Part shown: piece after piece, positions 1 to 12,496 of the stretch | Position numbering within the stretch: position 1 is the stretch's first letter | How the letters are laid out: the number at the start of each line of letters is the position of its first letter | Assembly (NCBI RefSeq): GCF_000149955.1 | Contig: NC_030990.1 | Coordinates: 3,957,482 to 4,021,481 of the forward strand | DNA length: 64,000 bases | From: Fusarium oxysporum f. sp. lycopersici 4287 | Taxonomy: Eukaryota > Ascomycota > Sordariomycetes > Hypocreales > Nectriaceae | Direction: 5' to 3' | Program-made: the position numbers and the translations under genes | Notes under the pieces: model-generated | Told to the model about the DNA's origin: nothing | Databases searched by the model: none | The model's input: the letters and a program-made list of their open reading frames with translations, nothing else

Positions 1-272
1 ACATAGATGAAAGGAAAGAAAGCGATTAGACTATTTGGATATAATTTCCCTATTCAGAAAAAATGGAAGGGACATCGGAGAGTAGAGTGAGCGTCTGTCG
101 AAGAAGTGGCACCGAGAGTTTTGCAAGGTATTCTAGATTAAAAAGTGTGATAAGACGGTTCGCAAGGAGATAAAAGGGTCCTTCAACTAGAGTAGAAGAT
201 GAGATGGTAAAAAGCAAAGGGGCGCATGTCTTGCAGCTTGGACTCGAACCTGTGATACTAATGACAAAAAAA

Positions 273-362
273 GCGAAGGGAGCGTTCTGGGATTCCGGAC
301 TCCCCGCTCGACCATGTTAGTAATTGGGTATATCCAATATTTGGTGTGTGCAACTACTTCGC
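273..362 (-). ncRNA. Array unit 1, tRNA-like subtype
   Basis: On the minus strand a TATA box (387-394) precedes an element starting GCGAAGTAG and ending CTTCGC, followed by T7 (266-272). A consensus-like A box TGGTCGAGCGG lies at 304-314. Just past the T7 run is a perfect B box, GGTTCGAGTCC (240-250). A further T5 run lies at 209-213. The terminal GCGAAG/CTTCGC pair can close the molecule, and GAGCG/CGCTC can pair inside. This unit best shows the tRNA-gene ancestry of the family. Confidence 0.6.
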
Positions 363-623
363 TGGTGGCCAAATCTTTTGTTTTGGTATATAAGGGTATG
401 TAGGTCGCTCTTAGAGTTATGTGCGTGAACCTACTGCTCGTGGCTCCGGGGCTGTGGCCTGGGGGTACGCGAAGAAACAAGAGAATGTATAACATTAGTA
501 TGTTAGTTACGATTGGGGAACTCTCATATTTATATTAGATACACCAAAAAAAGAAGAATGAGTAAGGACATGTTATAATAGGAGCTCAGGAGTTCGAACA
601 TGCGATGTGACGAACAGCAAAAA

Positions 624-693
624 GCGAAGGCAGCGAGGCGTTTGCTCCCCGCTGCGTTATACTTTTGCTTTGTATGTATTTCAGCTACTTCGC
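624..693 (-). ncRNA. Array unit 2, tRNA-like subtype
   Basis: A TATA box at 718-724 lies 25 bp outside an element starting GCGAAGTAGCTG and ending CTTCGC, with T5 at 619-623. The A box (TAACGCAGCGG) is imperfect. A TTCGAA B-box core lies at 591-600, with a second T run (546-552) beyond it. It shares the 5' GCGAAGTAG start with units 1 and 3. Confidence 0.5.
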
Positions 694-882
694 CGGGAGG
701 AGTGTCTGAGATTGTAGTATATAAGCTTATGATCACTGTCCGTAAGGCTACGACTCTGAACTTACTGTTGGGGACACATGGGCAGGGGCTCGACAGAAGA
801 AGTAAGGTATGTAGGCTCTATCACGGCATAATGCACTCTCAAAACCCAAGTCCAGCCAATTCAAGACCTTTGTGCATTTGAG

Positions 883-1780
883 GTGCTTAAATCGAAACAT
901 TATCGTTGCATCACTTTTGTTGATCTAGTTGTTCACGACCAACAGGTGCTGTATTCAGCCGCTTGTTCCGGTTGGCTCACACATCCTTCAGCCCCTCAAC
1001 ACCTCGGTATCAGTCCACTACAGGCCAAAGTACTGGGAGATCTGCATGAACTTTCATCACATCATACATCTCTTGCACAATTCCCAGGAATACTGCACCC
1101 CCAAATCATTATTCAAAGGTATGGCAAGCCATTCATTATATCCTTGGGGCTCAGGATGATAACCACCGATAGATATGAGCCATAACGATACCGAAACCCC
1201 GGAATATCTTTTCCTGGATATTCCTATGAAGCAGGTTCTCGAGCAAGATGGGATACAAGTTGAGGAGCCTTGGGGGCGTTTATATATTAATGCCATTCAT
1301 GAAGGAAGGTTTGGAGACGTGATATGGGCTCGCTATCATATGCTGGGCGATGTGGAGGATGGAAAGGTTGAAGGCGAGGATATGACCGTGGCTGAGAGTA
1401 TCAAGCAAGACGCAATCGGATATAAGCAGCATGACCGGGAGGACTTCGACAAGGCTGTGTCATTCTACGAGGAGCATATGAACAGCGGTGATGGACACCC
1501 TGAGGTTCTTGAGATCATCTTTGGGGTTGATAGAGAGGATGTCAGTGGGATCAAACTCCCTCCAGTTGGTTAAATACTTGACGAAAATAACAGAGTCGTG
1601 CTGTCAGGGTGATTGTTCTCGAGTTAACGCTGGACTCAACCGCAGCTTGACTGACGCTACCAATTGAGAGTGTTGTACATCGTGATAGAACCTAGAAAAG
1701 AAAAACAGAGTATACTGTAAGTGATGAAAAGAGGAAGAGCTAAAAGAAAGACAAAAAACTAGAATGTGATGGCCATCACA
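883..1780. other. Gap inside the array with a possible short coding remnant
   Basis: This is the largest interruption of the array. An open frame of 132 codons at 1175-1573 (+) has no domain I recognise; it is acidic and lacks obvious signal or membrane segments. Upstream frames (about 929-1185) are open in different phases, which suggests a decayed gene rather than a complete one. No hairpin unit is visible here. Confidence 0.35.
1175..1573 (+). CDS. Hypothetical acidic protein or gene remnant, 132 aa
   Basis: The frame starts at an ATG and is intronless over 132 codons. The product is acidic and hydrophilic, rich in Asp and Glu, and ends in a TAA. I see no signal peptide, membrane segment or known motif. 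The frame continues the sense of broken frames just upstream, so it may be the 3' part of a degraded gene. Its place between hairpin units 2 and 3 gives no functional hint. Confidence 0.3.
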   Translation: MSHNDTETPEYLFLDIPMKQVLEQDGIQVEEPWGRLYINAIHEGRFGDVIWARYHMLGDVEDGKVEGEDMTVAESIKQDAIGYKQHDREDFDKAVSFYEEHMNSGDGHPEVLEIIFGVDREDVSGIKLPPVG

Positions 1781-1815
1781 GGACTCGAACATAGAGTCAT
1801 AAACACTGTAGGAAA

Positions 1816-1889
1816 CGAAGGGTGGATCCGGGATTCCGGACTCCCGCTACACCAAGTGGTTCAGCTTGTGTTTCTTTTTAGCTACTTCG
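1816..1889 (-). ncRNA. Array unit 3, A box and B box before the terminator
   Basis: TATA (1913-1919) is followed by an element starting CGAAGTAGC. Its A box TGGTGTAGCGG is at 1844-1854. The terminator seen in other units is reduced to TTTCC, so transcription could run through the B box TGTTCGAGTCC (1781-1791) to the T6 run at 1753-1758. That is the normal tRNA-gene order and may be the ancestral layout, or simply a decayed copy. Confidence 0.5.
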
Positions 1890-1920
1890 TTGAGTGTGAT
1901 TGATTTAATTTGATATATAA

Positions 1921-2439
1921 CGAAGCTTGCAGGCTGATGATGCTGGTTGTCTGGTCGAAAGGGATTGTTGCTGCCTGGGCGTGCAGGCAGCAGCCGAGGC
2001 GCAGCACAAGTGGCGACAAATGTCATTGGGTGGACAACTCAAGAGGCCTCGTTATAGTTTGTTTTGAGAAACTTGTTTACGCGGCTTCGCTTTCCTCAAT
2101 GATGAAGAGAAGGCCCGTGTTGAACTGATGGTTGACTGATATGGGCCGTCTGGTCATAGCCTAGGGGGTTGGCTGTCTCCAGGCGGACAAGCACACGATC
2201 GCCAACATCACCACCTGACGACAACAACGTCACAGCTTACACCGCATAAGCGTAGAAGATCATGGGGAATGAAATGGTGTATTGAGGTGGTCTTGAATAA
2301 ACTCCATATATCATCTATGGGCAAGTGTCTGTTCAGATGGGACAGCGAGCTAAACCCTGACTCAGACCAAGAGAATTCCTTTCTCGATGAACTACGAGCC
2401 TTGAACTGTTCAAGACTCAGAATTACAGTATCAGGGATG
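1921..2439. other. Array spacer, no gene seen
   Basis: Between units 3 and 4 only short overlapping frames without motifs occur. No TATA-hairpin-terminator unit is present. Confidence 0.5.
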
Positions 2440-2473
2440 AAAAAAAGAGGTGGGTTTCGAACACAGGCAAAAA

Positions 2474-2565
2474 GACAAGGAGTGGGTAGCGGGAGAGAGA
2501 GTTTTTAGGAGCGGATTTTAGAATTCATAGGTTCTAGGACGTATGCCGCTACACCACTCCTTGTC
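2474..2565 (-). ncRNA. Array unit 4 hairpin RNA
   Basis: The arms GACAAGGAGTGG.GTAGCGG and its complement pair over about 19 bp with one bulge. The minus-strand 5' arm contains TGGTGTAGCGG, an A-box match. T5 is at 2469-2473, a TTTCGAAC B-like sequence lies next to it at about 2455-2463, and T7 follows at 2440-2446. The TATA element is weak (about 2572-2578). Confidence 0.55.
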
Positions 2566-2920
2566 GAAAGAGGTATACTAATTCTAATATTTAACACTCT
2601 ACCCCGGCTGACCTGCGAGGTAGTTGCGTTCAAGTGAGCGAGCCTGCCACTTAAACCACATCACGCAACTTACCGGGTCTTGTCAACAGGACGACCAAAC
2701 AATACCCCTGAGTTCACTTCATCATTATATAGAACCTGATTGTTAGCTTAGAAGACGAGCTCGGAGTTGGAAACAAACCATAGCAAAAAGAAATGCCATA
2801 TAAGAAATGATGGCAGCAGAGAGAAAAGGGGCAAGGAGTAAAACGGAAGCGTTCTGGGCAGCTCGAAGGAGGGAAAGTTCACGGGTCAGCCGGATAACCT
2901 AAAGATATTAGATATAGCGG

Positions 2921-2996
2921 CAAGAGTGGTACAGGGTCGGAGGGAAGGCCGGAGGGACGATTCGTAGGCTCGGAGGATACCACTATACCACTCTTC
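2921..2996 (-). ncRNA. Array unit 5, decayed
   Basis: The AAGAGTGGTA arms still pair and the TATA box (3022-3031) is intact, but the T run is gone (the sequence reads TAGCGG at the terminator site) and the interior is GC-rich and diverged. It is probably a dead copy. Confidence 0.4.
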
Positions 2997-3399
2997 ACTG
3001 GGGGTACAGAGAGTGTTTTTTGCATATAAGGGTATGTGGTCAGGTCTCGGACACAAGACCCTGGTGCTGATAGGCTGTCATTCTAGGCGGGGCAAAGTAT
3101 GCCTCTGCCTAACTCACCTGTGGTCCTCCCCTTTTGCCGCCTTTTCTGGCTTGGCCTCATGCTGAATCTGTCTTGAAGGCTTCCACGTAAAGAGCCAAAG
3201 CTTGAACTGTCCTTCTTGAAGCGTTCCCAAGTCACACCTGAGTCTCGACTTTGTCCAAACGAGGCCAAGCAGGTGTAGACCCTTTCTCGCAGTACACTTG
3301 CGGTGACCTTCTTTGAAGACCATAGACTCGACTGGCCAACAAGTAGAAGGACTGGCAAAAAGGAAAAGAACAGTGGGTACTGTTCAACTCAAGCAAAAA

Positions 3400-3501
3400 G
3401 CGAGGAGTGGTGGTCGTGGGAGAAGAGGGAATTGTAGGAGCGGACTCAAGAGTTTTTAGGTTCATAGGTTATAGGACGGATACCACTACACCACTCCTCA
3501 C
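3400..3501 (-). ncRNA. Array unit 6 hairpin RNA
   Basis: The arms GAGGAGTGGTG pair, with disturbance toward the loop. T5 lies at 3395-3399 and a second T5 at 3357-3361. The TATA box (GACATATAAGG on +) begins at about 3525. The interior keeps the family words GGAGCGGA and TTTTTAGGTT. Confidence 0.55.
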
Positions 3502-3617
3502 TGAAGAATGTGGATGTGATTTTGACATATAAGGGGTAGAGTCGAGAACTGGTGCTGTCTAGAGGGGCAAAAAAGAATGTCGCGGAAGACACTCGAAGTC
3601 GCGACTCTGGCAAAAAA

Positions 3618-3716
3618 CAAAGAGCGGGGCCTAGTGGGTTGAGAGAGTTTATAGGAGAGGGTTTGAAGATTTTAGGTTAATAGGATGCGGATTCCCACTA
3701 GACCACACGCTCTTTG
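3618..3716 (-). ncRNA. Array unit 7 hairpin RNA
   Basis: The arms CAAAGAGCG and CTAGTGGG pair around a two-base bulge. The A box on the minus strand is TGGTCTAGTGG. T6 lies at 3612-3617 and T6 at 3569-3574, with a TCGAAG sequence between them. TATA (GGTATATAAGG) is at about 3740-3750. Confidence 0.6.
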
Positions 3717-3996
3717 TTACAGACCATATGTGTGGTTTTGGTATATAAGGGGTAGGTGGCCATGTCGTGTCAGATGGCGGATCGTCGACGCAGCGCCCCC
3801 TATCACTGGCAAGAGTGTCCTTATGTGGTGTATGATCATGTTCTAAATCGTGATGGTAAAAGGGGGATGCCATCGCTGAGGACGAGGCCTGTAGATAGGA
3901 TCATCGTCAAGTACTGGTCTGCCAAGGGTGCGAAATCGAGGACCAAAAAGGGGATCCCTGTAGGAGAGGATTCGAAGTCGGGAGCCCTGCCAAAAA

Positions 3997-4090
3997 GCGA
4001 GGAGTGGGCAGTGGGGTGAGAGGTTTTTTAGGTGCGGATTTAAGACTTTAGGTTTGGTAGGTAACGTATTCCCACTACACCACTCCTCGC
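3997..4090 (-). ncRNA. Array unit 8 hairpin RNA
   Basis: A 19-bp stem with one bulged U has arms GCGAGGAGTGG and GTAGTGGG. The single arm difference is U-G in minus-strand RNA. T5 lies at 3992-3996 and T5 at 3945-3949. Between them is a good B box, ACTTCGAATCC on the minus strand (3968-3978). TATA is at 4114-4123. Confidence 0.65.
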
Positions 4091-4403
4091 TGATGGTAAA
4101 CAGAGTAATTTTGGCATATAAGGGGGAGGTGGCTGGTGTCCGTCTTGTCATGTGTCCATCAATCCACACCATGTCGACAAGTGTGCCCATTGCTTGACGG
4201 ATGTATCCACGTTGACAGCATTTCGGTTCGCGATGGATGTTTTTGTTCAAGTGGATGAGAACCAAGGCGTGCGATGAATGTCCGAAATGTCATCGAAGAA
4301 CACGTTCGAGTATGACGTCGAATGGCAAAAAGGTGATGTCGATGTCAAGACGGAGGAATCGGTGTCGAAGGGAGAACTCGAAATCGTGAACTTCGGCAAA
4401 AAA

Positions 4404-4494
4404 CAAGGAGCAGGCAGCAGGGTGAGAGAGGTTATAGGTGCGGAAGAGAGACTTTAGGTTAATAGGTTGCGTATTCACACTACACCACTCCTTG
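4404..4494 (-). ncRNA. Array unit 9 hairpin RNA, wobble-rich
   Basis: The arms CAAGGAG...CAGG and the opposite arm differ at five sites that all become G-U pairs in minus-strand RNA. T6 lies at 4398-4403 and T5 at 4327-4331, with TCGAAA between. TATA reads GGTATAAAAGG on + (about 4518-4528). Confidence 0.6.
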
Positions 4495-4898
4495 CCGAGG
4501 GTAAACTGAGTGTTTTTGGTATAAAAGGGGTAGGCAGCAGAGACTGTATCGCGTGCCTCCCCCATAAGTTCCACACAACGCCACAACAAGCACGGGCGGG
4601 ACTCACAGTAGGCAGAGCACTCACGGCAGGTGCAGTACTAGAATGCTGTGCCCACGTTGCTTGAAGACACTCTGACCTGATCTCAACATTCTTCGACCAT
4701 TTGGTAAGGTATGGCAGCATAGAGCTGAGCCCCTTTTCGGCAAAAATGAGAGGTGCACAATTTCAGGTCTGTTTTGCTGCCAGTATCCACAGGTTGTGTG
4801 CGTCGCAGTTTTGAGTCGTCACTTGGGATGTCGTGGAACAAAAAGAAGTTGAGCCTGTTGCTTGTTGAAGTAGTGTTCGAACTCGTGAACGGCAAAAA

Positions 4899-4990
4899 TC
4901 GAAGAGCAGCCTAGTGGGTGGAGAATTTTAGGTGCGGAATGAGAGAAGGTTTATAGGTTCTAGGACGGATACCACTAGACCACTCTTCGA
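4899..4990 (-). ncRNA. Array unit 10 hairpin RNA
   Basis: The stem TCGAAGAGTGGTCTAGTGG is fully pairable in minus-strand RNA with three G-U pairs; the plus-strand RNA would have three mismatches at the same sites. T5 lies at 4894-4898 and T5 at 4840-4844, with GTTCGAAC between. TATA is at 5011-5022. Confidence 0.7.
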
Positions 4991-5194
4991 CACGAGTAAT
5001 AGAGTGGTTTTGGCATATAAGGGGTAGGGTGCAGTGCTGCGCTTTTGGCCAGGTCAGGGGCAACGCCAGACAAAGAGATCCGAGGGAAAAGAAAGTCCGA
5101 GTCAGTATTATCGTAGAATGGGGACCATCTTCGAATTGTGAAGAGCAAAAATGAAGATACTGTATGTTGTCTCGAACGTATGAACTGACAAAAA

Positions 5195-5283
5195 CGAAGA
5201 GTGGCCTAATGGGTGAAGAATTTTAGGTGCGGATTGAAGAGAGTTCATAGGTTCTAGGACGGATACCACTAGACCACTCTTCG
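5195..5283 (-). ncRNA. Array unit 11 hairpin RNA
   Basis: A stem of about 18 bp has two G-U pairs in the minus-strand sense. The A box is TGGTCTAGTGG. T5 lies at 5190-5194 and T5 at 5147-5151. B-like CGTTCGAGACA (minus) lies between them at 5168-5178. TATA is at 5305-5316. Confidence 0.7.
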
Positions 5284-5500
5284 GTGAAGGGTAGTGTGTG
5301 ATTTTGGCATATAAGGGGTAGGATGCCTTGCCGTACGTAATAGGTAGTGTCAAGTTGCAGAACCAGCACCAGACAAAGTGATCAAACTCGGAGGAAAAAG
5401 TCCAATCCGGTATTGTCATTATTCGAGAACCGTGGCGAAATCGTGAGAAGCAAAAAATGAAGACATCGTATCTTGCCTCGAACGTACGAACTGGCAAAAA

Positions 5501-5585
5501 CGAAGAGTGGCCTAGTGGGAGACTGTTTTTAGGTGCGGTATAGAGTTTATAGGTTTTAGGTACGGTACCACTAGACCACTCTTCG
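5501..5585 (-). ncRNA. Array unit 12 hairpin RNA
   Basis: The stem CGAAGAGTGGTCTAGTGG has one G-U pair. T5 lies at 5496-5500 and T6 at 5452-5457. B-like CGTTCGAGGCA (minus) is at 5474-5484. TATA GGTATATAAGC (+) is at about 5608-5618. This is a clean representative of the family. Confidence 0.7.
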
Positions 5586-5761
5586 TCGAGGATAACACTG
5601 TGCTTTTGGTATATAAGCGGTAGGTGTTGACTGTCCCCATCAGAACCTCAATGCCCCTTCGTCAAACAAATCGATGGCATATGAAAGGAAAGTCCGATCA
5701 AGTGTTGCCACAATCTAGCAAACTTTCGCACATGATTATGTCGCAAAAAGAACAACAAAAA

Positions 5762-5830
5762 CGAGGAGTGGCCCGGCGGGAGGAGGATTCGTAGGTTCAG
5801 AGGTTCGGGACACTGATAGAACACTCTTCG
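5762..5830 (-). ncRNA. Array unit 13, shortened and degenerate
   Basis: Only the outer CGAAGAGTG arm is kept well. The interior is about 20 bp shorter than in neighbours and the A box is damaged (GTGTTCTATCAG). T5 (5757-5761), a nearby T5 (5745-5749) and a TATA-like box (about 5852) remain. It is likely a decaying copy. Confidence 0.4.
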
Positions 5831-6034
5831 GTGAAGGGTAGTGCGCGATTTTGACATATAGGGGGCTAGGTATCAACTATCCCCATCAGAGCCTCATGGC
5901 CCCTGTGTTAACAGAGCGATGACATCTAAAAGAAAGCCCAAGTCGATATCGCTGCAATCCGGGGATTGTTATCGTATCGGTGGGTCGTAAAAAGAATAGC
6001 ATCAAGTACTCATTCGAACTCCTGAACAGCAAAA

Positions 6035-6137
6035 CGAAGAGTGGCCCAGCGGGAGAGGGATTTTTAGGTGCGGATTTGTAGAGATTTTAGGTTCAAGGTT
6101 CTAGGATCTAGGACGGATACCGCTAGACCACTCTTCG
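6035..6137 (-). ncRNA. Array unit 14 hairpin RNA with compensated GCGG arm
   Basis: The arm reads AGCGG where most units read AGTGG, and the opposite arm carries the matching change (CCGCT), so pairing is kept. Two further differences are G-U in minus-strand RNA. T4 is at 6031-6034, TTCGAA at about 6013-6018, T5 at 5989-5993 and TATA at 6161-6170. Confidence 0.7.
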
Positions 6138-6519
6138 GTGAAGGGTAGTGTGTGTTTTTGACATATAAGGGGTAGGGACGAGGGGCCGTACTGCCAGCGC
6201 CGTAGTGGCGATTGAGGCTCATCTGACCCAACTCCTCCAGGCACCCATCCACGAAGTGACCAAGCACTGGACAAGAACCGACACATTCCCTGGGGGTTCT
6301 CTTGTACACTGCCATAATGCCATAAGTGGAATCAGAACCCAACCTTTTCATCATCAACAATGTCTGGTCTTCGTATTACTCCATGGCAGTTGGCATGGAC
6401 TGACTGTCGTACCCCTGAGTCGATATCTTCGTCACCCAAAATTATTGTTCTGTTATTGACAAGCAAAAAAGGAATGGTCATGTTGCGGTTGCTGTGTTTT
6501 TTGTATGATCCAGCAAAAA

Positions 6520-6620
6520 CGAAGAGTGGTGCAGTGGGAGAAGGAATTGTAGGAGCGGAGTTTAGAGATTTTAGGTTATGGTCTTAGGATCTAGGACGGA
6601 TACCACTACACCACTCTTCG
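6520..6620 (-). ncRNA. Array unit 15 hairpin RNA
   Basis: An 18-bp stem has one G-U pair. The A box is TGGTGTAGTGG. T5 lies at 6515-6519 and T6 at 6465-6470. No B-box core is seen between them. TATA (GACATATAAGG) lies within 6643-6653. Confidence 0.65.
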
Positions 6621-7008
6621 GTGAAGGATATGATGTGGTTTTGACATATAAGGTGAGGGGTGTCCAGTCGGTACCGATGCCTAAGGTGTAAGCCACCCTC
6701 AAGATGCAGAGCGTCTCAGCCTCCCGGGCCCACCCCTGAACAGGACCTGCCTGTCGGCGATGGATTCGGAACATGACCTGCACTTTGTAATGCCGTTGGT
6801 GTTTTCCGTCGTATGGGCTTACATGACGATCTCATTGTCCTGTCTCATGTCGACCACGAGTCCTTCTCTATTGATCAGAAATAAGATGGTGCCGACTCCA
6901 TATCACTGTCGCTTGTTGCTGAGCATCGCTTGGCGGTATTGCTGGTTGGGGGGAGCAAAAAGAAAGGTCATCGTGCGGCCATGCTGAAATTGTGCCATCC
7001 AGCAAAAA

Positions 7009-7113
7009 CGAAGAGTGGTACAGTGGGAGAAGGAGGAATTGTAGGAGCGGATTTTAGAGATTTTAGGTTTATGATCTTAGGATCTAGGACGGATACCACT
7101 GTACCACTCTTCG
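7009..7113 (-). ncRNA. Array unit 16 hairpin RNA with compensated ACAG arm
   Basis: The arms are identical complements over 18 bp, with GGTACAGTGG where unit 15 has GGTGTAGTGG; both arms changed together. T5 lies at 7004-7008 and T5 at 6957-6961. The TATA box is altered (GGTATACAAG on +, about 7136-7145). Confidence 0.65.
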
Positions 7114-7388
7114 GTAAGGGTAAGAGAGTGATTTTGGTATACAAGCGGCAGATGCCCAAGTCCCGTTTAACGCCAGAATACCCAGAAAATCGACCAACAA
7201 ATCGGACCGGGTTAGAAAGTATGTCTGTTGTCCAAATGAAAGTCGTCGATGTCGTGAGATGTCGTATTCGTTTGTTTATATTCATCCCTGCGTTTGAACG
7301 CCCTGAAGCCTGGAAGGAAATGAGAAGAAAACGAGTCGACTAGAAAGATCGAGATGCCAAAAAGAAAGTCTAACCAAATGGCAAAAAA

Positions 7389-7486
7389 GAAGAATGGTGT
7401 AGTGGGTGAGAATGGTCTTAGGAGCGGATTTTAGAGATTTTAGGTGACCTTAGGAGTTTAGGGCGTATACCACTACACCATTCTCC
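7389..7486 (-). ncRNA. Array unit 17 hairpin RNA with compensated AATGG arm
   Basis: GAATGG replaces GAGTGG and the other arm carries CCATTC, so the pair changed from G-C to A-U on both sides. T6 lies at 7383-7388 and T5 at 7359-7363. A B-like TTTGAA sits about 85 bp beyond the first T run (7293-7298). TATA is at about 7511-7519. Confidence 0.65.
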
Positions 7487-7677
7487 GATGGGGGTATAGA
7501 AAGTGATTTTGGTATATAAAGGTAAACTCCCCGGAGCCCCTCGGACACTCTCAGTAAGTGACGTACTCGGAACGTGTCGCTGGGTTCGAACGTGCTGAAA
7601 ATTGGTGAAATAAATCCGGGAAAAAGGACGCATAAGAAATAGTCTCAGCAAAAATGAAGTTGATTTAACCAGCAAAA

Positions 7678-7777
7678 GCGAAGAATGGTGTAGCGGGAGA
7701 ATGGTCTTAGGAGCGGATTTTAGAGATATTAGGTGACCTTAGGAGTTTAGGAGCGTATACCGCTACACCACTCTTCG
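7678..7777 (-). ncRNA. Array unit 18 hairpin RNA
   Basis: The stem CGAAGARTGGTGTAGCGG has one G-U pair. T4 lies at 7674-7677 and T5 at 7650-7654. TTCGAA lies at 7585-7590. TATA GGTATATAAAGG (+) starts at 7801. The spacer resembles those of units 17, 19 and 20. Confidence 0.7.
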
Positions 7778-7953
7778 GTGAGGATATAGCTAGAGATTTT
7801 GGTATATAAAGGTAAACCCCTCCAGAGTACGTATCGTCATGGCAAGGTATCGCTGCGTTCGAACGTCATCAGAAGTTGACCAGATAAATCCGAGAAAAAA
7901 AGAGGTTAGATGTCGAGACCAGATGAACAAAAAGTTGAGTCGATTGGCAAAAA

Positions 7954-8054
7954 CCGAAGAGTGGTGTAGTGGGAGAATGACCATAGGAGCGGATAGAAGA
8001 ATTTTTAGGTGATTATAGGAGTTTAGGAGTGTATACCACTACACCACTCTTCGG
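7954..8054 (-). ncRNA. Array unit 19 hairpin RNA, perfect stem
   Basis: The two arms are perfect complements over 19 bp (CCGAAGAGTGGTGTAGTGG). T5 lies at 7949-7953 and T5 at 7929-7933. TTCGAA lies at 7858-7863. TATA is at 8078-8087. This is the cleanest hairpin of the array. Confidence 0.75.
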
Positions 8055-8204
8055 TACTGGTATAGAAAGTGATTTTGACATATAAAGGTAGACCCCTCAG
8101 AGGTACATGTCGCTGCGTTCGAACGTCGCGAAATTTGGCGAAATAAATACAGGGGGGAAAACAGATCCGGGCCGGCGACAAGAATCCGAGCCAACTGGCA
8201 AAAA

Positions 8205-8306
8205 CCGAAGAGTGGTGTAGTGGGAGAATGATTATAGGAGCGGATTTTAGAGATTTTAGGTGATCATAGGAGATCTAGGAGCGTATACCACTACACCACT
8301 CGTCGG
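8205..8306 (-). ncRNA. Array unit 20 hairpin RNA, promoter-proximal end of array
   Basis: A stem of about 19 bp has one true mismatch (AAG against CGT). T5 lies at 8200-8204. TTCGAA lies at 8117-8122. TATA GGTATATAAGGG (+) is at 8328-8339. No further unit is found to the right. Confidence 0.7.
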
Positions 8307-8340
8307 TATGGGTATTGGGCGATTTTTGGTATATAAGGGT

Positions 8341-10176: not shown

Positions 10177-11529
10177 TTATCTCCTTCGTCGAGCCGGTGA
10201 TTTCGTCTTCTTGAACTCATCCTTAATGTCATCCAACAGTCCGTCAACCGTCAAAACATCCACAGCAACACCAGCAAGACCCTTAGCGACCATGAGAGCC
10301 TTCTCGAAAGCAGGCTTGCTTCCCGCTGCGACTTCGAAGGGCGCAGTGTGAGGGCCACTCTTTGGAACAGTTCCATTAGCAAAGGTGATCTGGAACATTG
10401 GGCTAATAGCAGGGAAGTCCTGGCTGATATTGCCTTGGTCAGTTGAACCACCGGGCTCTCGCATCTTGTCGACATCAGCATCGGGGAGGTCACCGCCAAG
10501 CTCTTCGAACCAGCGTGTGTATGATGCAGCGAGTCCGTCGTTGTTGTTCATATTGGCATAGCCGTATGGTCGTGTTGTAAAGTTCATCTTAGCGCCTGTG
10601 CCAAGAGCTCCGGCTTTGAAGCAGTTGTACACACGGTCTGAGAGTTCCTCCAATTGCTCCTCGTTCGCGGCGCGAAGCTGGTAGCTTCCCGATGCATCAG
10701 CAGGAATGACGTTGATACGAGTTCCCGCTGAGTGGATGATCCCATGAACACGGTCAGTCGTGCGCATTTGTTGGCGCATGTAGGACAGAGCGCTGTTGGC
10801 AAGGAGGAGTGCGTCTTGTGCGTTGATGCCCTCCCAAGGCCCGGCTGCAGCATGGGCTTCACGACCTATGTACTCAACATCGACACGATCTGTTGACTGA
10901 GCCAGCATGTACGGTGTGTCGGGGCCGTTGCTGGGATGGGAGATCAGAGAGATGTCAATCTTGGCATCCTTGAAGACACCGGCTTCGAGCATCTTGACCT
11001 TTCCACCGAGAGATTCTTCAGCTGGCGTGCCAAAGAGAATGACCTTGCCCCCGAGCTTCTCCTTGCGCATGATCTCAGCGGTTGCAAGAGCACCACCTAG
11101 CGATGCTGTCGCAATCAAGTTATGGCCACAGGCATGTCCCAGTCCCTCCAGCGCATCGTACTCGGCATTGAAGCTCACAACAGGACCATCACCTGAGCCA
11201 TCAAACACGGCCATGAAAGCAGTGTCGATGCCACCAACTGTATCGGTCACGTTCCATCCCTTCTGCTTCTTCATGAACGATGTGAGAAGCTTGTGGGCCT
11301 TGAACTCTTTGTATCCAAGCTCAGGATTGTCGTGGATGTTCTTGTTGATTGACCAGAGCTCTTTATCGAGTGAGTCGACGTAGTCTGAGACTGCGTCTGT
11401 GTATGGACTTGTGGCATTCTTCTTTTGGCGTGGTTCAAGGGTGGTTTGTAGTGATGATGCTGGGGCTGCTAGGAGTGTGAGGCCAAACGCGAAGGCCGCG
11501 AGGCCTCTGGCATGATCTAGACAGACCAT
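10177..11529 (-). CDS. Secreted M20-family metallopeptidase / amidohydrolase
   Basis: A single-exon gene of 450 aa from the only ATG in the frame. The N-terminus (MVCLDHARG then a hydrophobic stretch to APASS) looks like a signal peptide, so the protein should enter the secretory path. Metal-site motifs of the M20 (aminoacylase-1-like/PM20D2) group are seen: a GHACGHN block, the FGTPAEE block with the catalytic Glu, and later SHPS. Family members hydrolyse amide bonds of small peptides or N-acyl amino acids; the substrate here cannot be told. The C-terminus is Lys/Arg-rich (about 10 residues). Length fits the family. Confidence 0.85.
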   Translation of the reverse strand: MVCLDHARGLAAFAFGLTLLAAPASSLQTTLEPRQKKNATSPYTDAVSDYVDSLDKELWSINKNIHDNPELGYKEFKAHKLLTSFMKKQKGWNVTDTVGGIDTAFMAVFDGSGDGPVVSFNAEYDALEGLGHACGHNLIATASLGGALATAEIMRKEKLGGKVILFGTPAEESLGGKVKMLEAGVFKDAKIDISLISHPSNGPDTPYMLAQSTDRVDVEYIGREAHAAAGPWEGINAQDALLLANSALSYMRQQMRTTDRVHGIIHSAGTRINVIPADASGSYQLRAANEEQLEELSDRVYNCFKAGALGTGAKMNFTTRPYGYANMNNNDGLAASYTRWFEELGGDLPDADVDKMREPGGSTDQGNISQDFPAISPMFQITFANGTVPKSGPHTAPFEVAAGSKPAFEKALMVAKGLAGVAVDVLTVDGLLDDIKDEFKKTKSPARRRR

Positions 11530-12496
11530 TATAATGTCTTGCTCTTCGATATGTATTGAGTTCAATTAGAACCGCCGGTTGGAGTTTAATTTCTGCGTTC
11601 CAATGATCCTGAGTATCACCTCGAACCTGGACAATGTGTAACAGATTGTCCGTCGCATCGCGTACATGGCAATCGCCCGATCTTATATGCTACAGCCACT
11701 CTGATCTCCAGTGTTACTCAGTTAGGCGAACCACGATTGACGGTATTCTTGTTATCACTTCTTTTGGCAGTATCTCAATTGCTCCTCAGTCTAGGACCTA
11801 GAATTGTTGCCCGAGACTCCACCTCGCAAATCCCCCGCCCAAGAAGTTATATAGTTACCTTCCTAACTGGGGTACCAATTAAGCAAATCTTTAGAGTTAT
11901 CAGTTAGTTGAACCTGGGTCGTATCGTCACCCCGCTTCGTGGGTCTCTTATTCCCTGCGATGAGTTCGTCTATGTAACCATAGCCTTGATATCGATAGCC
12001 GATGCGGCACCGACCAAGGATCTGATTACCGGGATGAGGATTGCAAGCTTCCGAGGATTTGAGTAACTATTATGGTGTTCTCCATAACTTCTCCATTGCC
12101 GTGGTCTAAAGCCGGCCAGGATCCGCGGCAATATTGACCGCCGTTTGTCGACAATGTGGGATTTGTGTCTGAGGCGAATTTATATATATACTCTCCGGGG
12201 GATTATTACATATCATGGTCGATCCAAAGGAGGTGCTAGTATCTTGTACCAGGAGGTGAGCTCTGAAGTTAAAAGGTAGAGGCAGTCATCATTTATTCTG
12301 GTCACTAAGTAGTTATGGCCAGTAAGTAGTTATCCAATGGGCCATCTCTAAACATGTCACAGATGCCAAAGTAGATCAAAAGGGCGGCGTCAGCCGTTAT
12401 ATCACCCGGGACTCATGTTAGTTGCCTCGAAATCATGATTCAATACTCATTTCAGATGGGCTCTCCGTGAAGTATGAGATGAAAGAACTCGACAGT
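11530..12496. other. Intergenic, no gene seen
   Basis: It contains the promoter side of the M20 gene. There is an AT-rich TATATATATA stretch near 12181-12190, but no supported coding frame. Confidence 0.5.

Follow-up and report, generated by a model that had tools for sequence, protein, structure and literature searches.

A Putative RNA Polymerase III Gene Family for Stem-Loop RNAs in a One-Strand Array of Fusarium oxysporum

A cluster of short units, all on the minus strand, occupies the left end of a 64,000-nucleotide stretch of the Fusarium oxysporum f. sp. lycopersici 4287 genome (NC_030990.1; C5:3957482-4021481 of the 61.2-Mb assembly, hereafter the window), and this cluster is, with a probability that we put at roughly 0.6, a family of RNA polymerase III (Pol III) genes for protein-bound stem-loop RNAs. 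Seventeen hairpin units (type A), named here after their +1 positions in the window, extend from 8305 down to 2469, with three units of a diverged kind to their left (type B; +1 at 1889, 692 and 361). Three more type B units follow on the same strand in the 4 kb beyond the left window edge, which brings the whole array to at least 23 units over ~11.2 kb, all in one orientation. Together with at least eight solo type A copies outside the array, on contigs 1, 7, 9, 11, and 13, the family comprises at least 31 loci (25 hairpin and 6 sister units, some of them decayed), genome-wide copy counts being lower bounds because only the best candidates of the search were scored. A sequence-only reading of this stretch had described a 20-unit hairpin array of Pol III-type genes for RNAs of about 70-105 nt. 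The array proved real and far from chance, and TATA, A box, terminator context, covariation and GU pairs all agree with the proposed gene type, at an RNA length of 74-110 nt including the T-run; however, three of the 20 units are not hairpins, the array is longer leftward, and the GTTCGA motif behind the terminator and the second T-run of most units had been overlooked, as had the solo loci and the units beyond the left window edge.

If transcribed, these loci would constitute a family of at least 31 members without Rfam match in a much-studied fungal group, would supply numerous naturally occurring versions of an SNR6-like promoter in which the use by TFIIIC of a B box behind the terminator could be studied, and would offer a way into the unknown noncoding RNAs of Fusarium.

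Conservation of the Stem and the Loop

The stem pairs in 95.3% of the cells of a structure-fitted alignment of 24 type A sequences (unit 2997 was omitted by score), compared with 37-67% in a control in which the partners were slid. Nine of the 18 pairs show two-sided changes, and the covariation score of this alignment was reached in 0/500 shuffles. RNAalifold, run on a MAFFT alignment of 19 sequences, returned 17 pairs, 6 of which carry two-sided changes. When GU and AC were scored alike, the stem cells held 32 GU versus 4 AC, three of the latter in the decayed unit 5830; as the ratio is reversed on the other strand, the helix appears to be kept in an RNA copied from the minus strand. On the minus strand a covariance model scored 35-105 bits, as against 37.9 bits or less on the plus strand, although it was built from these same units. 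Folding z-scores ranged from -3.95 to -7.48 in 6 of the 7 array hairpins folded, the seventh being unit 5830 (+0.45), and from -2.96 to -6.55 among the solo copies (7/8 folded).

The stem measures about 18 bp at most and encloses a loop of unusual composition, with 7% G and, over all loops, 82 CCTA words where shuffled loops have a mean of 28 and a maximum of 43. CCTAAAA occurs in 21/25 type A loops, and the corresponding RNA loops would present three or four CCUA motifs as a rule. Outside the units, spacer identity is at the shuffled level (0.49 vs. 0.48-0.49), while promoter, arms and loop all stand above it, as the sequence-only reading had noted of diverged spacers and conserved parts. With spacers at shuffled identity and gene parts kept, the copies are presumably old and their gene parts persist, against which stands the decay of units 5830 and 2997.

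Promoter Elements

TATA lies at -27 to -31 in 23/25 type A units of the array and dispersed loci together (the misses being 2563 and C1:5737k) and at -30/-31 in 5/6 type B units, compared with 1.3% of positions at which a 5-nt slot contains TATA in the background (window 9001-64000). It is not a generic feature of the Pol III genes of this genome, an explanation that was rejected because only 1/20 tRNA genes (20 of the 63 listed) carry TATA at -36 to -22, or 2/20 if -45 to -22 is read, the wider slot accommodating transcripts that begin ahead of the mature tRNA. The promoter word CYTTATATRYCAAAA has 13 matches in the genome, all within the family (11 type A array units, type B unit 361 and the solo copy C1:5670k), and its reversed control has 2.

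The 5' arm of 23/25 type A units contains TGGYNNAGYGG, which is missed in 5830 and 4494 and has a single match in the background on both strands; in the type B units this box was read by eye. This motif corresponds to the A box, and the GTTCGA motif described below to the core of the B box. Identity between units is also higher in the 5' arm than in the 3' arm, with a median of 0.83 vs. 0.67 in the array and 0.89 vs. 0.70 in the solo copies (3' arm values are rough, as this arm was cut at fixed offsets), which would be expected if the 5' arm also carries a promoter box. Both the fixed TATA spacing and the tRNA-type A box in the 5' arm had been proposed from the sequence, and both held up against the background counts.

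Terminators and the Downstream B Box

A T-run stands at the end of the hairpin in 24/25 type A units, so that this part of the sequence-only layout stood except for unit 2997, which has none; type B unit 1889 likewise has none before its B box. The run, of T4 or more, is followed by GC at 18/24 hairpin ends (2997 left out), 13/19 tRNA genes and 25/362 background runs from both strands. In 22/25 type A units another T4+ run lies no more than 80 nt further on, 9 of these with GC. The T4-6 runs behind the tRNA genes, with GC following at the frequency just given, may be a Pol III terminator signature of this lineage.

The B-box core GTTCGA is found 6-12 nt behind the T-run in 13/25 type A units (8/8 solo, 5/17 array), while three units at the right end of the array carry it 75-84 nt behind the T-run and three further array units show, by eye, TTCGA with a different first base. 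Shuffled sequences gave a mean of 1.0 and a maximum of 6 for [AG]TTCGA when the 40 nt after the T-run were considered. In type B, GTTCGA is present in 6/6 units, 8-19 nt past the RNA end and in five of them behind a T-run, the remaining unit being 1889.

The retained terminators bear on the idea that the cluster is a DNA-level bank of TFIIIC/TFIIIB sites that acts as a chromatin boundary, its RNA being a by-product. The crowding of at least 23 promoter-like units into ~11 kb of one strand would suit such a role, but the compensatory changes, the one-strand GU excess and the G-poor loop are constraints at the RNA level and the terminators are kept; we consider this explanation very improbable.

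Type B Sister Units

Type B units resemble type A in TATA, in the CGAAG start and in the GTTCGA further downstream, but do not have the hairpin. Their predicted RNAs have GCGAAGTAG in common at the start and, in 5/6, CTTCGC before the T-run, while no common middle was found among the six (mean column identity 47%) and no shared fold among the three of six that were folded (z -1.57 to -2.20). A genome search with a pattern made from the type B ends, which by construction misses unit 1889, gave 5 matches, all in the array, and 0 for the control.

Dispersed Copies

The solo copy C1:5670543 (C1:5670k) shares 92% identity with unit 4989 and lies between the two copies of a 19-bp direct repeat (shuffle maximum 10), from which it appears that a single gene, together with its promoter and B box, was inserted recently. 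Since TATA moved with this copy, it is not accounted for by simple retroposition of an RNA that begins at +1. No comparable flanking repeat was found at the other 7 solo copies, where exact repeats only were considered. Two units of the array also have flanking repeats longer than their shuffle maxima, 18 bp at 8053 and 11 bp at 5830, and the repeat of 8053 is a GTTCGA-bearing spacer block in common with the neighboring unit.

These copies are the natural starting point for a selfish reading, in which a tRNA-derived mobile element of the short interspersed nuclear element (SINE) type multiplied in place and scattered. The tRNA-like A box and B-box core, the eight solo copies and the recent insertion on contig 1 would all fit, yet the flanking repeat is confined to that one copy among the exact repeats considered, the upstream TATA travels with the copies, unlike what is expected of copying from an RNA that starts at +1, the copies are few and by eye lack an A tail, and structure and promoter are kept while the spacers are saturated. 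We regard a mobile element of this kind as improbable, and a SINE proper was rejected on the basis of a target-site duplication at 1/8 dispersed copies.

Two side observations concern the solo loci. The copy C1:5670k (locus coordinates 3480-3720) lies just behind a frame that by eye resembles mitochondrial ribosomal protein S14, and a weak model match beside the C7 solo copy (locus coordinates 1298-1393; 14.9 bits, E 0.2) looks like a decayed second unit.

Comparison With Known RNAs and Elements

No Rfam family matched at gathering score in the window and the scanned loci, four matches lying far below these scores; the absence of a Rfam match agrees with the novelty assumed in the sequence-only reading, as does the absence of a tandem-satellite signal. 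A satellite or tandem repeat was rejected, as there is no TRF row in the array and the spacers are at shuffled identity. Identity with tRNA was likewise rejected for the window and the scanned loci, which gave neither an ARAGORN call nor an RF00005 match or cloverleaf, and identity with U6 was rejected because RF00026 has 0 matches at gathering score in the window and the two U6 matches of the genome lie elsewhere. The latter (C4:3413432, 61.6 bits, above the cut-off; C7:3890980, 36.6 bits, below it) are, by eye, both interrupted by inserts that hold GTTCGA, an intronic B box. The only exact 20-mer hit by a pattern scan of prokaryotes lies in a gammaproteobacterial record that lacks the hairpin (12.7 bits) and was taken as chance, and the viral pattern scan gave 0 matches. 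Searches of the open-licence literature did not find a description of this hairpin RNA family.

The A box, GTTCGA and the T4-5GC terminator context are alike in the family and in tRNA genes, and the 5' half of the units resembles the tRNA gene C5:3193548; in contrast to tRNA genes, the family has TATA, and its two RNA ends are joined in a single long stem. Y RNAs and the nematode stem-bulge RNAs are short Pol III RNAs with paired ends, a pyrimidine-rich loop and a U tail. The family is alike in its paired ends, loop and U tail, but differs in that the genome has no match to the Ro60 domain and none of the units matches Rfam, the sequences being unrelated as tested. A Y RNA proper was rejected, as the TROVE (Ro60) domain gave 0 matches in the genome, although introns could hide a broken-up gene.

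The closest parallel in gene layout is yeast SNR6, in which TATA lies upstream, box A is separated from box B by 202 bp, and the latter is extragenic, past the terminator (PMC9136082). The order of TATA, A box, T-run and then a candidate B box recurs here in those units that have the GTTCGA core, whereas the family RNA is not U6 by Rfam, the copies are many, the candidate B box stands 6-19 nt behind the T-run as against the 202-bp A-B distance of SNR6, and many array units lack it or have it elsewhere.

Fungal Pol III hairpin genes are also known from Neurospora, where microRNA-like RNAs (milRNAs) are reported to be largely Pol III-made, milR-4 arising from a tRNA-containing transcript, and where milR-1 has TATA-like elements and is reported without A and B boxes (PMC3547838). 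By analogy, the units could be milRNA precursors, short Pol III hairpins cut by Dicer and Argonaute into microRNA-like RNAs, and the oligo-U-ended hairpins, the 5 Piwi-domain matches in the genome and the Pol III origin of the Neurospora milRNAs speak for this. The units nevertheless depart from milR-1 in having an A box and a B-box core, neither of which is reported as predicted in milR-1; moreover, the stem is short, at most about 18 bp, the loop is long, and the loop sequence is conserved too. Among the F. oxysporum milRNAs and small RNAs of Table 2 in PMC4139310, 0/15 matched the family within 3 mismatches and one matched a tRNA gene; the 15 are all but one of 16 distinct sequences, the omitted one being nested between two that were compared, and the family was represented without the three units left of the window. 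The small-RNA path suggested by the sequence-only reading is thus not supported so far by these published sequences, and we consider milRNA precursors an unlikely alternative to structural stem-loop RNAs.

Proposed Mechanism and Points Against It

The layout, its conservation, the covariation, the strand bias, the terminator context and the family-specific promoter word are read from the sequence itself. TBP/TFIIIB would bind the TATA word ~30 bp upstream, while TFIIIC would bind the A box, which is part of the transcribed 5' arm, and also the B box shortly after the first terminator in those units that have one. Pol III would start at about GAAG and stop at the T4-T7 run, to yield an RNA of ~74-110 nt that ends in an oligo-U tail and is closed by a stem of up to 18 bp between its 5' and 3' ends. 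The G-poor CCUA loop, held out by the stem, would most likely dock a protein, and the RNA would then work as a protein-bound structural or regulatory RNA that is Y-RNA-like in form only. Type B genes would have promoter, start, end and B box in common with type A and a different middle. Transcription, the use of Pol III and TFIIIC, protein binding and function are all inferred.

Several observations weigh against it. The 24-sequence alignment was fitted to the structure and its shuffles ignore relatedness, and the covariation term of RNAalifold is small (-1.16 of -25.36 kcal/mol). GTTCGA within 12 nt of the T-run is absent in 12/17 array hairpin units, the fuller box GWTCRANNC occurs in 6/25 only (other strand 1, shuffle mean 0.4), and [AG]TTCGA is also found on the opposite strand in 8/25, which is explained by GTTCGAAC being almost palindromic. 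At least two units are decayed, 5830 in its A box and fold and 2997 in its T-run. Protein binding, the step that we favor, is suggested by loop composition and conservation only.

The simplest history would start from a tRNA-like gene that gained a terminator between its A and B boxes. A bolder proposal, possible in our view though short of even odds, is that the family represents a new fungal structural RNA class, namely Pol III stem-loops that offer CCUA-repeat loops to a protein, with a family TATA word and a B box that came to lie outside the gene after a terminator arose between the A and B boxes of the tRNA-like ancestor, in which case the SNR6 layout would have originated twice independently, and that a sister RNA class, alike at the ends and different in the middle, is made from this array as well.

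Coordinates of the Units and Neighboring Features

The type A units of the window, given from T-run to +1 so that the higher coordinate is +1, all lie on the minus strand. At the right end, 8200-8305 (TATA -30), 7949-8053 (TATA -31), and 7674-7777 (TATA -31) carry GTTCGA 75, 84 and 82 nt after the T-run, respectively. They are followed by 7383-7487 (TATA -31), in which GTTCGA was not found within 110 nt, 7004-7113 (TATA -28), with a compensatory AC/GT change in the stem, and 6515-6620 (TATA -30), again without GTTCGA within 110 nt. Then come 6031-6137 (TATA -30; GTTCGA at 6014-6019) and the decayed unit 5757-5830, which has TATA at -30 and has lost A box and fold. The units 5496-5585 and 5190-5283 both have TATA at -30 and a second T-run, with GTTCGA at 5478-5483 and 5172-5177, respectively, and 4894-4989 (TATA -30; GTTCGA at 4877-4882) is the closest relative of the solo copy C1:5670k. 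A TTCGA variant stands behind the T-run of 4398-4494 (TATA -29), which misses the A-box pattern, of 3992-4089 (TATA -31), and of 3612-3718 (TATA -29), a unit with a bulged stem whose +1 was corrected by eye. The block ends with 3395-3500 (TATA -31), 2919-2997 (TATA -31), the unit without T-run, and 2469-2563, which lacks TATA at -30 and has GTTCGA at 2457-2462.

The type B units of the window, also on the minus strand, comprise 1785-1889 (from CGAAGTAG to GTTCGA at 1785-1790; TATA -30; no T-run before the B box), 594-692 (TATA -31; T5 ending at 619, GTTCGA at 594-599), and 244-361 (TATA -31 with the family promoter word; T7 ending at 266, GTTCGA at 244-249). Inside the array, at window 1175-1573, lies a plus-strand open frame of 132 aa with no Pfam match, and the protein frame at window 10180-11565 shows 97% identity to a protein cluster named from Fusarium verticillioides.

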